Of a stretch of 64,000 nt of DNA, positions 57,558 to 63,036 are shown piece by piece. Under the pieces are notes generated by a model, which ran no database searches, had not been told where the DNA came from, and saw nothing but the letters and a program-made list of their open reading frames with translations. The stretch is from Gammaproteobacteria bacterium (GTDB taxonomy: Bacteria; Pseudomonadota; Gammaproteobacteria; Acidiferrobacterales; Sulfurifustaceae). The first letter of the stretch is position 1. Each line of letters begins with the position of its first letter. The position numbers and the translations under genes were made by a program. The stretch covers positions 62,001-126,000 of the forward strand of contig JACQFZ010000071.1 of assembly GCA_016199745.1 (NCBI GenBank). The letters are read 5' to 3'.

Positions 57558-59684
57558 ATGAACGCAGTTCCCTTACAGGCTGTCCCGGCAGTATCGACCG
57601 AGATTCCCTATCAACCCGCGTCTTACGACATTTGGGACAAAAAATATCGTCTCAAAGCCAAGAACGGGGAAGTCGTCGACCAAGATATGCAAGGCACCTA
57701 CACCCGCGTCGCCCGCGCATTAGCCGAAGTTGAAATAACCGAAGACAAACGCAGTTTGTGGTATGAGCGCTTTTTGTGGGCGCTGCAGAATGGCGCGATT
57801 CCAGCCGGCCGCGTAACGTCGAATGCCGGCGCGCAAGAACATAAGCCGGCCACCAGCACGATTAACTGTACCGTCTCCGGCACAGTGCCGGACTCAATGG
57901 ACGGCATTCTCGCCGCGGTGCATGAAGCGGGCTTGACCCTCAAGGCCGGCTGCGGCATCGGCTACGAATTCTCCACCTTGCGTCCCAAGGGGGCGTTTGT
58001 CAGCGGCGCCGGCGCCTATACCTCGGGCCCACTTTCCTTCATGGATATCTTCGACGCCATGTGCTTCACCGTTTCGTCGGCCGGCGGCCGCCGCGGTGCG
58101 CAGATGGGCACGTTCGATATCTCGCATCCCGACATCACCGACTTCATCCGCGCCAAGCGCGAGAACGCGCGGCTGCGCCAGTTCAATTTGTCTTGCCTCA
58201 TCACCGATGAATTCATGCAGGCGGTGAAGAGCGATGGTCCCTGGGAGTTAGCGTTTCCGGCGAGCCAATCGGAATACGACAACAAGGACACCAAGATCGT
58301 TTGGCGCTATTGGCCGGAGAACCACAGCTACATTACCGACGACATCGGTCGCATCGCCTGCCGGGTTTACAAAACCCTGCCGGCGCAGCGCTTGTGGGAC
58401 TTGATCATGGCGTCGACCTACGACTACGCCGAACCCGGATTCATCCTGATCGACCGCATCAACGAGATGAACAACAATTGGTTCTGCGAGAACATCCGCG
58501 CCACCAATCCCTGCGGTGAGCAACCGCTGCCACCGTACGGTTCGTGCTTGCTCGGATCGGTCAACCTGACGAAATTCGTCGAGGACGCATTCACCGATCG
58601 CGCCCACTTCAACTGGCAGAAGTATCGCGAGGTCATCGGCATATTCACCCGCATGCTCGACAACGTCGTCGAGATCAATGGCTTGCCGCTTGAGCGGCAA
58701 CGTTATGAAATCGAACACAAGCGCCGCCATGGCATGGGTTTCTTGGGCCTCGGTTCGACCCTCACTCTGCTCAAGATGAAATACGGCTCGACCGAATCGC
58801 TCGCCTTCACCGAACGAGTGGCGCGCGAGATGGCGGAAGTCGGTTGGGAAGTCGGCGTCGAGTTGGCGGAAGAAAAAGGGCCCGCGCCGATTATGGTTGA
58901 TGAATTCGAAGTCACCGAAGAGATGCTGGTGCGTCGCCCGGAGATGCGCACCGACGGTTACAAAGTCGGCGACAAGGTACCGGGTCGTATCCTACTCGGA
59001 CGTTACAGCCGCTACATGCAACAGTTCGATAAGTCGTTGACCGAACGCATCGCCGAGAAGGGTGCACGCTTCACACATCACACGTCGATCGCACCGACCG
59101 GCACCATCTCGTTGTCGCTCGGCAACAACGCCAGCAACGGCATCGAGCCATCGTTCGCGCACAAGTACTCGCGCAATGTTATTCGCGAAGGCAAGAAGAG
59201 CAAAGAGAAGGTCGATGTGTACTCGTACGAGCTGTTGGCCTATCGCACCTTGATCAACCCGGATGCCGACCCAGAGACACAAGATCCGCAAAACAAGCTG
59301 CCCGACTACTTCGTCGCCGCCGACGATATCTTGCCGCGGCAACACGTCGATATTCAGGCGGCCGCGCAAAAATGGGTGGATTCTTCGATCTCGAAAACCG
59401 CCAATGTACCGACGGACTTCCCGTTCGAAGACTTCAAAGACATTTACATGTACGCCTACGACAAAGGCCTCAAGGGTTGCACCACCTTCCGCTTCAACCC
59501 GGCGGCGTTCCAAGGCGTCCTGGTCAAGGAAAAGGATCTCGAGAACACGACCTATCGCTTCACACTGGCCGACGGCAAAGTCGTCGAAGTGAAAGGCAAC
59601 GAAGAAATCGAGTACGACGGTGAAATGCACACGGCCGCTAACCTCTATGACGCCCTCAAAGAAGGGTACTACGGCAGATTCTAA
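57558..59684 (+). CDS. nrdJa: class II (adenosylcobalamin-dependent) ribonucleotide reductase, large part
   Basis: 708 residues; reduces ribonucleotides using coenzyme B12 and works with or without oxygen. The active-site triad is in ATNPCGEQPLPPYGSC (Asn-x-Cys-x-Glu), the reductive Cys pair is in INCTVSGTV and KGCTTFRF, and GYEFSTLRPKG and APTGTISLSLGNNASNGIEP are conserved. GGAGG lies upstream of the ATG. The carboxy-terminal portion is encoded separately downstream, as in Pseudomonas nrdJa/nrdJb. Confidence 0.94.
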   Translation: MNAVPLQAVPAVSTEIPYQPASYDIWDKKYRLKAKNGEVVDQDMQGTYTRVARALAEVEITEDKRSLWYERFLWALQNGAIPAGRVTSNAGAQEHKPATSTINCTVSGTVPDSMDGILAAVHEAGLTLKAGCGIGYEFSTLRPKGAFVSGAGAYTSGPLSFMDIFDAMCFTVSSAGGRRGAQMGTFDISHPDITDFIRAKRENARLRQFNLSCLITDEFMQAVKSDGPWELAFPASQSEYDNKDTKIVWRYWPENHSYITDDIGRIACRVYKTLPAQRLWDLIMASTYDYAEPGFILIDRINEMNNNWFCENIRATNPCGEQPLPPYGSCLLGSVNLTKFVEDAFTDRAHFNWQKYREVIGIFTRMLDNVVEINGLPLERQRYEIEHKRRHGMGFLGLGSTLTLLKMKYGSTESLAFTERVAREMAEVGWEVGVELAEEKGPAPIMVDEFEVTEEMLVRRPEMRTDGYKVGDKVPGRILLGRYSRYMQQFDKSLTERIAEKGARFTHHTSIAPTGTISLSLGNNASNGIEPSFAHKYSRNVIREGKKSKEKVDVYSYELLAYRTLINPDADPETQDPQNKLPDYFVAADDILPRQHVDIQAAAQKWVDSSISKTANVPTDFPFEDFKDIYMYAYDKGLKGCTTFRFNPAAFQGVLVKEKDLENTTYRFTLADGKVVEVKGNEEIEYDGEMHTAANLYDALKEGYYGRF

Positions 59685-59701
59685 CTAACGCGTCTCACAT
59701 A

Positions 59702-59742
59702 CTTCCCCTCAGGGGGAGGATAAAGGGTGGGGGTGGGTTTTC
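59702..59742. repeat. partial dispersed repeat (CTCTCCC family), copy 4
   Basis: TTCCCCTCAGGGGGAGGA with AAAGGGTGGGGGTGGG between nrdJa and nrdJb, a single unit of the family seen near 6473. It lies just after the nrdJa stop and upstream of nrdJb. Confidence 0.6.
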
Positions 59743-59786
59743 TCGAACAAAGCGAAACTCGCCCTCGCCAAATTTTGGAGGCCACT

Positions 59787-60455
59787 ATGGCTATCAAGAT
59801 CAGCGAAAAGATTACCGGTTTCGATGTCGTCAAGAACGAGGAGCCGGCGCGTCCTGAGAGCAACGTCGTGCACATGCACGAGAAGCTCGAGCGTCCCGAC
59901 CTGCTCGAGGGCTCGACCTACAAGATCAAAACGCCGCTTACCGAGCATGCGCTCTATGTGACGATTAATGACATCATCCTCAACCTGGATACGCCGAACG
60001 AACGTCGCCGGCCGTTTGAGATCTTCATTAATTCCAAGAACATGGACCACTTTCAGTGGGTGGTAGCGCTAACGCGCGTCATCTCGGCAGTGTTTCGCAA
60101 AGGCGGTGATTGCACGTTCTTGGTCGAAGAGCTGCGCTCCGTGTTCGATCCGCGCGGCGGCTACTTCAAGAAGGGGCATTACACACCGTCGTTGGTCGCC
60201 GACCTCGGCGATGTCATCGAACGACATCTGAAGAAGATCGGTTTGATACCAACGGAAGAGATGGATGCGTCGCGCAAACAATTTCTCGCCGAGAAGCGCG
60301 CCGAAGTTTCGAATCGTAACGCTGCACCAAGCGCTGATAGCAACGGTGAGTTCCCCGCTGACGCTCAGTTGTGTGCCAAGTGTTCGGCAAAGGCAGTCAT
60401 CCGCTTAGATGGATGTGTCACCTGTCTCAACTGTGGTGACTCGAAGTGCGGATGA
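59787..60455 (+). CDS. nrdJb: NrdJb, C-terminal subunit of split class II ribonucleotide reductase
   Basis: 222 residues from the ATG preceded by GGAGG; the frame opens 20 codons upstream without a good site. A TSCPD-type domain (TPLTEHALYVTINDIIL, PFEIFINSKNMDHFQWVVALTRVISAVFRKGGD) precedes a Cys-rich tail (CAKCSAKAV, CVTCLNCGDSKCG). In Pseudomonas the NrdJb polypeptide is required for reductase activity, and the tail cysteines pass electrons. It is in the same transcript as nrdJa, 102 bases apart. Confidence 0.92.
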   Translation: MAIKISEKITGFDVVKNEEPARPESNVVHMHEKLERPDLLEGSTYKIKTPLTEHALYVTINDIILNLDTPNERRRPFEIFINSKNMDHFQWVVALTRVISAVFRKGGDCTFLVEELRSVFDPRGGYFKKGHYTPSLVADLGDVIERHLKKIGLIPTEEMDASRKQFLAEKRAEVSNRNAAPSADSNGEFPADAQLCAKCSAKAVIRLDGCVTCLNCGDSKCG

Positions 60456-60460
60456 GTTGT

Positions 60461-60504
60461 TCATCGCGCGTGATCGCATGATCACAACGCGTCACGCGCG
60501 ATGA
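60461..60504 (+). terminator. hairpin ending the nrdJ transcript
   Basis: TCATCGCGCGTGA and TCACGCGCGATGA pair perfectly over 13 bp with an 18-base loop directly after the nrdJb stop. TGTGTCGTTGTGTTTT follows, giving a partial T-tract. Confidence 0.72.
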
Positions 60505-60562
60505 TGTGTCGTTGTGTTTTCCAAAAAAGGTTTGCAATTTTGTATTTCTTGTTTTAATGTTC

Positions 60563-60950
60563 TTGACACATCAAGGAGATCTGCTAAAGAAAGGATGAGC
60601 TCGAGACATGGAACGTCGACCGCTGAATGAAGTTGAGCTGTGAAGCGAACGATTGCGATAGCGCGATCGCAGAAACAGCAAAAGCGGAACAGACAACAAG
60701 ACGAGGCTAACGCAGATTGTTGGATCGATTGCGAAGTAACACAACCGCGAGTCACCGCGCTCTGTCAGAAAAAGAAAAACAAAAGACAATTGAGCGCCGG
60801 GCAACCGTCGAACAATGGAACGGATTGCAACCGAAGTGGACTTACCGCGGTCTCGCTCTCTCACTTACCGAATCCCTGGAAGAGATGGTCATGAGCCGTC
60901 TCTTGTCTTGCGCCACGAGCAGTACCGCAGGGGCGTCGCCCCTGTTTTAA
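60563..60950 (+). ncRNA. unexplained transcription unit with promoter-like sequence and early hairpin
   Basis: TTGACA at 60563 and TAAAGA at 60585 (16-bp gap), preceded by an AT-rich stretch, form a promoter-like pair. A hairpin CAGGGG-CGTCG-CCCCTG at 60928-60944 followed by TTTT ends the stretch. Reading frames in between are short, start without ribosome-binding sites and resemble no family. It may be a leader for the lysine-rich micro-ORF, with an attenuator, or a separate small RNA. Confidence 0.35.
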
Positions 60951-60980
60951 CTCCCTTAAACCTAAACCAAGGAGCCCATC

Positions 60981-61031
60981 ATGGCCGCAAAGAAAAAGGC
61001 TAAGAAAAAAGCAGCAAAGAAGAAGAAGTAA
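60981..61031 (+). CDS. possible 16-residue lysine/alanine micro-ORF
   Basis: Encodes MAAKKKAKKKAAKKKK. A perfect AAGGAG (60969-60974) lies six bases before the ATG, and the stop is TAA. The peptide resembles histone-H1-like tails and the first residues of the proC product in this window (MAAKKKTKRR). It is preceded 32 bases upstream by a hairpin with T4 and followed by a strong terminator at 61153-61200. It could be a nucleic-acid-binding peptide or the leader or sensor of a regulatory RNA. I know no described homologue. Confidence 0.5.
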   Translation: MAAKKKAKKKAAKKKK

Positions 61032-61152
61032 CGCTAGAGGCGGGAGTCTTCTAGTAACTGCTAGAGAGGGTGTGCGGGAAACCGCCGCTGTCTCGGTAAG
61101 GTCGAAAGGCTGCAGTTATTTGGATGAATCGCCCGCCTCGCAGCAGAATGAG

Positions 61153-61200
61153 CCGGTAGCATCGCCCAACCCCAAATCGGTGCGATGCTACCGGTTTTTT
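61153..61200 (+). terminator. strong rho-independent terminator after the micro-ORF
   Basis: CCGGTAGCATCG at 61153-61164 pairs perfectly with CGATGCTACCGG at 61183-61194, followed directly by six T residues. It clearly ends a plus-strand transcript that can only come from the 60.5-61.1 kb interval. The 166 bases from 61201 to murU show nothing further. Confidence 0.9.
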
Positions 61201-61366
61201 ATCACCCTTAAACCTATCAACCCGCGCCACCCAAACCAGGCGGCGGAACCCGCTTCCTTATTTTGGCTGCATTCGCGACTAACGCCTAGCAAAAGTTTTC
61301 CCTTACGCATTAATAGCTTATGCGAACCTGCCTAAGAATCGGCCGTTATCGACCCCATACCTATTA

Positions 61367-63036
<1,670 letters not shown>

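Follow-up and report, generated by a model that had tools for sequence, protein, structure and literature searches.

A conserved, probable transcription unit beside the nrdJ partner gene in one gammaproteobacterial order, with terminator-like leader hairpins and a lysine-rich micro-ORF

Organization and Conservation of the Locus

The window is the whole stretch of 64,000 nucleotides that was analyzed, positions 62001–126000 of contig C71 of genome G000. Toward its end a cassette of ~670 bp (60531–61203) lies between the partner gene of nrdJ and a gene on the other strand, presumably murU (61367–62038), beyond the terminator. Pfam confirms nrdJ and its partner by their ribonucleotide reductase and TSCPD domains; the names murU and amgK are presumptive. 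The initial annotation placed in the interval a promoter, a hairpin followed by T4, a micro-ORF preceded by AAGGAG, and a 12-bp terminator with T6, and the sequence carries each of them in its place. The analysis adds a UP-like element, a conserved box, a further hairpin upstream (hairpin 1), a structured 3′ stem, and longer orthologues of the micro-ORF in sister families. All of the cassette features described below are on the plus strand.

Of the 20 genomes of the family, 17, G000 included, have the cassette next to the nrdJ partner gene. As for the remaining three, the contig of G001 begins at the terminator, and G010 and G011 (76–78% complete) have no match to the partner. Across the order the partner is present in 34 of 57 genomes, and the cassette stands beside it in all 34. 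The ORF starts 463–632 nt past the partner in the 17 family loci; a lysine-rich ORF starts 477–824 nt past it in each of the 17 further order genomes that have the partner. murU lies beyond the cassette in 32 of the 34 loci: in 16 of 17 within the family, on the other strand (it was not found in L041), and in 16 of the 17 others, the exception being L126, whose contig ends inside the ORF. An early count by similarity with a limit of E ≤ 1, which gave 39 of 41, was inflated by lysine codons and was set aside. In five f6 genomes (L127, L131, L134, L137, and L140) 705–733 nt separate the end of the lysine ORF from murU, and ~500 nt of this gap lie beyond the terminator.

The putative promoter (60563–60590) consists of TTGACA (60563–60568), a 16-nt spacer, and TAAAGA (60585–60590), with TGC before the −10 hexamer, and the pattern recurs at constant spacing. 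TTG[AG][CT]N-N13-TGC[TA] is found in 31 of the 34 syntenic loci, or 32 with L129 counted; among the 34 searched, L032 and L045 are those in which it was not found. The order-wide form is TTGAY-N14-TGC (32/34). Upstream lies the AT-rich UP-like element TTTGCAATTTTGTATTTCTTGTTTTAATG (60531–60559), recognized in alignments of 17 and 34 loci. In the family alignment the UP-like element and promoter have a mean identity of 0.67, compared with 0.17 directly upstream. A generic promoter scan of the source sequence found none, and TAAAGA is a poor fit to the −10 consensus; generic scanning also misses the terminator, with its 18-nt loop. Since such scans are blind to both features, the statistics of a single sequence are insufficient here, and comparison must decide.

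Within the leader, a 17-nt box, TTGGATCGATTGCGAAG (60720–60736), has an identity of 0.91 over the 17 family loci. Identity is 0.81 in the Shine–Dalgarno (SD) region, 0.77 in the ORF, 0.72 in the terminator, 0.59 and 0.52 in the hairpins, and 0.47 in the 3′ stem. Outside the named elements the leader, at 0.42–0.44, is little above the sequence past the terminator (0.34). A regulon defined by the box was considered and rejected: with at most one mismatch the box occurs once, at the cassette locus only, in four of six genomes searched and is absent from the other two. Single matches with two mismatches lie elsewhere in G000, G004, and G025, and a control pattern also has one match, in G025. Kept over the 34 loci, with some diverged members in each case, are a TTTGCAATTTT-like element, the promoter, the box, a AAAGACAGCC/GGCTGTCTTT-type hairpin, GCAGTACC, a G/C hairpin, CCYYTAACCACAA, and the SD. 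These alignments support the view that the cassette is a conserved transcription unit across an order; the initial impression that the succession of promoter, hairpin, peptide, and terminator looks purposeful finds support in that conservation.

The Micro-ORF and Its Longer Orthologues

The micro-ORF (60981–61031) specifies 16 residues, MAAKKKAKKKAAKKKK, of which 11 are lysine, in an almost pure lysine–alanine sequence. Its ATG, at 60981, lies 6 nt past the SD AAGGAG (60969–60974), and a lysine-rich ORF occupies the same place in all 34 loci. The alignment of relatives that the initial annotation had proposed finds the ORF, SD, and frame kept in all 17 family loci.

The 17 family loci differ by 19 single-nucleotide codon variants, and 16 of these are synonymous, compared with a mean of 6.9 and a maximum of 13 under the null (5000 randomizations). 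The corresponding counts are 12 of 12 in the four f7 loci (null 4.6) and 8 of 11 in five of the six f6 loci, L141 being left out (null 4.3, P = 0.017); the rows are related to one another, and P values serve as guides. All changes in ORF length are in frame, between the conserved SD and a mostly conserved sequence past the stop codon. The excess of synonymous changes thus makes the ORF look translated, and translation is well supported by comparison of the loci. Gene callers usually apply a minimum length of about 30 codons; a micro-ORF below this limit would be missed.

At the syntenic locus the ORF encodes 14–21 residues in the source family (f1), 18–26 in f6, and 21–30 in f7. Long forms of 79–93 residues occur in f2 and of 98 in f5, which also has one of 101, cut off by the end of its contig. 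The 79–98-residue orthologues of these two sister families, in the same place, carry KKKA repeats and have an H1-like composition. Since orthologues of 14–98 residues occupy one place, the micro-ORF may be regarded as the short end of a histone-H1-like KKKA series. The series has two traits of the H1-like class, very basic, low-complexity, K/A-rich sequence and variation in length through repeat units. A further trait of the class, DNA binding or nucleoid condensation, is predicted for the cassette protein. Of the three initial guesses, a histone-like peptide fits best, in the light of the long KKKA orthologues and the codon test, with DNA binding as its predicted part. A tree of the nrdJ partner, which does not polarize the change in length, places the short f7 forms among the long f2 forms. 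For the proteins scanned, Pfam and NCBIfam gave no hit that reached its cut-off; a family-model match is hard to get because the sequence is of low complexity. L141 (G056), labeled f6, groups with f1 in the partner tree, and its ORF of 18 residues is nearer to f1 than to other f6 members.

Leader Hairpins, 3′ Stem, and Terminator

Hairpin 1, AAGAGATGG...CCGTCTCTT (60880–60904), is terminator-like, with an 11-bp stem. In the covariation alignment 95.9% of cells pair over 20 sequences, and 4 of the 11 pairs are changed on both sides. Its U-tract is good in many relatives and poor in the source sequence (TTGTCTTG); in many f6, f7, and f2 loci the U-tract is long and the hairpin has the form of a textbook terminator. 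There follows a conserved element, GCAGTACC (60919–60926), recognized in the alignments. Between it and the ATG lie 58–73 nt, depending on the locus; a second promoter at this place is therefore disfavored. Hairpin 2, CAGGGGCG/CGCCCCTG with T4 (60928–60948), comprises the stem-loop CAGGGGCGTCGCCCCTG (60928–60944) and T4 (60945–60948); in f6 and f7 it too is followed by U-runs. The last conserved segment before the ORF (60951–60974) contains CTCCCTTAAACCTAAACC, which is CCYYTAACCACAA in many relatives, and the SD.

Of 37 loci (the 34 order loci and three second copies in f7, described below), 34 have at least one terminator-like hairpin in the last 135 nt ahead of the ATG, compared with 15% of shuffles, and 19 have two, compared with 0.4%. 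By the rule used, no hairpin is found in L040, L126, and L141 among these loci, and in L041 hairpin 2 alone passes. Taken together, hairpins 1 and 2 pair in 90.7% of cells, versus 43–63% when the pairing is slid, and their covariation score beats 500 of 500 shuffles. Five pairs are changed on both sides, a count that 55 of 500 shuffles match or exceed; for the pair-type count 187 of 500 do so. The alignment used, A6, consists of the 20 well-aligned rows of 34, and the covariation result leans toward the stem because the rows were chosen in this way. In the leader alignment L129 was trimmed by 330 nt, and A5 comprises 33 of the 34 rows, L040 being left out. Consensus folds of four family groups contain no shared alternative or antiterminator fold. 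The initial description of an attenuator-like hairpin stands as anatomy, which the leader sequences support, and the hairpins may terminate transcription; the consensus folds revealed neither an antiterminator nor a signal.

Directly past the stop codon lies a stable structured 3′ stem (61033–61144; RNAfold z = −6.0); with the terminator included (61030–61202) z is −7.4. In eight other loci the stem has z = −2.0 to −4.1. Over nine close relatives the paired share of cells is 95.6%, versus 39–50% when slid, and 6 of 33 pairs are changed on both sides, a number reached by 5 of 500 shuffles. Alignment over all 17 family loci is poor, with 5 stem pairs only, and covariation is therefore claimed for the nine closest loci. 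Sixteen sister loci have low-energy stems past the stop codon, as judged by folding without a shuffle control. Attenuation does not account for the 3′ stem.

The intrinsic terminator (61150–61200) has CCGG at its base, a perfect 12-bp stem (61153–61164/61183–61194), an 18-nt loop, and T6 (61195–61200). The core stem pairs are formed in all 17 family loci, and sister-locus terminators read CCGGTTT in 13 of 16 and are of a GGCC type in three. A model of the 3′ part, R1, matches 17 of the 20 family genomes and, weakly, three f6 genomes.

Taxonomic Range and Reuse of the Leader

A second model, R2, extends from hairpin 1 to the start codon. With a threshold of E ≤ 0.001 it matches 37 of the 57 order genomes, namely the 34 already known and, weakly (24–37 bits), G010, G053, and G054. 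Three of the four f7 genomes contain second copies elsewhere in the genome, at 78–99 bits: L182 in G034, L183 in G030, and L184 in G025. Each precedes a gene for another basic protein, of 67–75 residues and beginning MAKKR, and consists of hairpin 1, a GCAGTACC-like element, hairpin 2, CCTCTAACC, and the SD. Its recurrence ahead of a second basic-protein gene links the module with polycationic proteins and not with nrdJ. Among the 23 order genomes that lack the nrdJ partner are all 18 of f4 (e.g., G022, G027, G032, G036, and G040), none of which has a match to it. Seventeen of these 18 likewise have no R2 match; the exception is a short match of 36.9 bits in G053.

In 369 genomes of the class, R2 scores 95–130 bits in three members of the order and at most 31.4 bits elsewhere. 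At E ≤ 0.01, 141 of the 369 pass. No lysine-rich ORF follows the match in any of the best 27 of the 138 outside the order, and on this inspection the 138 are read as chance terminators. The nrdJ partner is present in 84 of 185 class genomes, 82 of them outside the order, and no cassette was found within 1.5 kb downstream of it in the best 28 of the 82. Four frames of 12–15 residues at three loci (L192, L195, and L199) passed a screen for basic residues and were judged coincidental.

Eight of 18 pattern matches in named records contain the same ORF: two Sulfuricaulis, two “Candidatus Muproteobacteria,” Acidithiobacillales SM1_46, one Acidiferrobacterales MAG, and two with broader labels. In the ten remaining matches the encoded proteins are unrelated, as they are in the five viral-contig matches. 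Sulfuricaulis belongs to Acidiferrobacterales. Within the sampled genomes the series is found in one gammaproteobacterial order only, Acidiferrobacterales to judge from the named relatives. Searches of the open-licence PMC literature listed no paper on the locus.

Discussion

The reading that best fits these observations, and that we consider just probable, is that the cassette produces a polycationic micro-protein throttled by the terminator-like hairpins of its leader. One transcription unit would yield an RNA of ~600 nt, about nine-tenths of it non-coding if the start is placed from the promoter, that encodes a 16-residue lysine/alanine polycation. A strong promoter would fire constantly, and the hairpins between promoter and start codon would stop many transcripts early, so that a leader RNA of ~300 nt remains. 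Conditional read-through, perhaps mediated by the box or by binding of the peptide to its own leader, would then allow the micro-protein to be made. The peptide may neutralize and condense DNA, RNA, or polyphosphate, as is presumed of the lysine/alanine tails of larger H1-like proteins. Toxicity of the free polycation could plausibly explain such a throttle.

It is also conceivable, though rather unlikely, that the locus has two products. The 5′ part (~60597–60910) would act on its own as a regulatory RNA, with the box for a seed, and the lysine gene would be carried along by read-through; alternatively, the entire transcript would be a dual-function RNA acting by both peptide and base-pairing. 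The initial guess of a small regulatory RNA may thus apply to the 5′ part of ~300 nt. The 91% identity of the box within the family and the confinement of its close matches to the cassette locus would suit such an RNA, as would the terminator-like hairpins that close the 5′ part and the large non-coding share of the transcript. The hairpin–SD module of f7, however, also precedes a second basic-protein gene, and by eye no box lies upstream of those copies; the module thus goes with the protein. Nor does Rfam recognize a known RNA: neither a lysine riboswitch nor any other family was matched in 59500–62000 and 12 loci, hits to whalefall-1 (59699–59734) and to mir-3914 (in L041) being far below their gathering scores. 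It is less probable still that the role of the hairpins and 3′ stem is to stabilize the mRNA of a gene expressed without regulation. Weak U-tracts in several family members, the source sequence among them, and the low-energy stems of the sister loci are what this explanation would predict, but the textbook terminator form of hairpin 1, with its long U-tract, in many f6, f7, and f2 loci and the U-runs after hairpin 2 in f6 and f7 speak against it.

A leader peptide, in which ribosomes pausing on lysine codons sense lysine or charged tRNA-Lys and so control a downstream gene, is very improbable despite the 11 lysines in 16 residues. Amino-acid leader peptides have the regulated gene downstream in the same unit, but here a terminator follows and the next recognizable gene, mechanical frames such as 61072–61335 aside, is murU on the other strand. 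Moreover, the orthologues reach 98 residues, and residue positions and length shift between relatives. The lysine-sensing leader envisaged in the initial annotation is thus not supported by the gene order, and no lysine riboswitch was matched. Hardly any weight can be given to a CsrB/RsmZ-like RNA, whose GGA motifs would titrate CsrA: seven GGA triplets occur in 272 nt of leader in the source sequence, but over 34 leaders the count is 176 versus 161 ± 9 in dinucleotide shuffles, without clear enrichment.

The throttled micro-protein may be part of a larger picture, which we put forward tentatively. The cassette could be an order-specific riboregulated device whose strong promoter and terminator-like hairpins together govern a polycation of 14–21 residues, maybe the shortest nucleoid- or polyphosphate-binding protein, which possibly binds its own RNA to set its level; the leader would be portable, serving a second basic-protein gene as well.

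Enterobacterial transcription-attenuation leaders consist of a promoter, a leader, a terminator hairpin, and then the gene. The cassette likewise has a terminator-like hairpin between promoter and gene (34/37 loci, with the promoter in 32/34) but differs in that the hairpins stand immediately ahead of a micro-protein gene. RNA control of a nucleoid protein has a reported precedent in RaiZ, a ProQ-dependent small RNA said to act on hupA (HU-α). A small RNA of this kind acts in trans and has an architecture other than that of the cassette. A ProQ-dependent small RNA is the subject of PMC5391140. In Chlamydia, the small RNA IhtA represses the histone-like HctA, a protein lethal to E. coli when expressed there, according to PMC3469542. 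The likeness lies in an RNA restraining a basic DNA-binding protein; IhtA, however, is not part of the hctA message, whose translation it represses, whereas the cassette leader would act in cis through terminator-like hairpins.

On the protein side, a close comparison is with the H1-like C-terminal KPAA-repeat tails of Pseudomonas AlgP and PhaF, which share a repetitive, lysine- and alanine-rich tail. According to PMC9239181, KPAA peptides bind DNA in vitro and AlgP associates with polyphosphate granules. AlgP has 352 residues with a predicted helical N-terminal domain of 124, whereas the cassette protein, at 14–98 residues, is all tail and has KKKA rather than KPAA. Hc2 (HctB) of Chlamydia and the Hc2-like proteins of Bordetella, Burkholderia, and others are likewise lysine-rich and H1-like and vary in length by repeat number. 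They are likened here by description only; Hc2 has 165–237 residues, and the abstract of PMC2848022 names no such leader.

If the throttled-polycation reading is correct, an entire H1-like protein can consist of as few as 14 residues and still be under selection. The locus would then offer a natural length series, from 14 to 98 residues at one place, for asking how much polycation suffices. Its conserved leader RNA, without a match in Rfam 15, would allow control of a polycation by RNA to be tested.

The neighboring nrdJ shows variation of its own. Among the 15 family loci whose sequence spans this part, five (L037, L039, L032, L035, and L043) carry in nrdJ an open, in-frame insertion of roughly 1 kb near residue 307–319, which the nrdJ of the window lacks. 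In the two that were scanned (L037:3-2873 and L039:2-2920), LAGLIDADG and intein-splicing domains were matched, one splicing match falling below cut-off, and the insertion is therefore identified as an intein.
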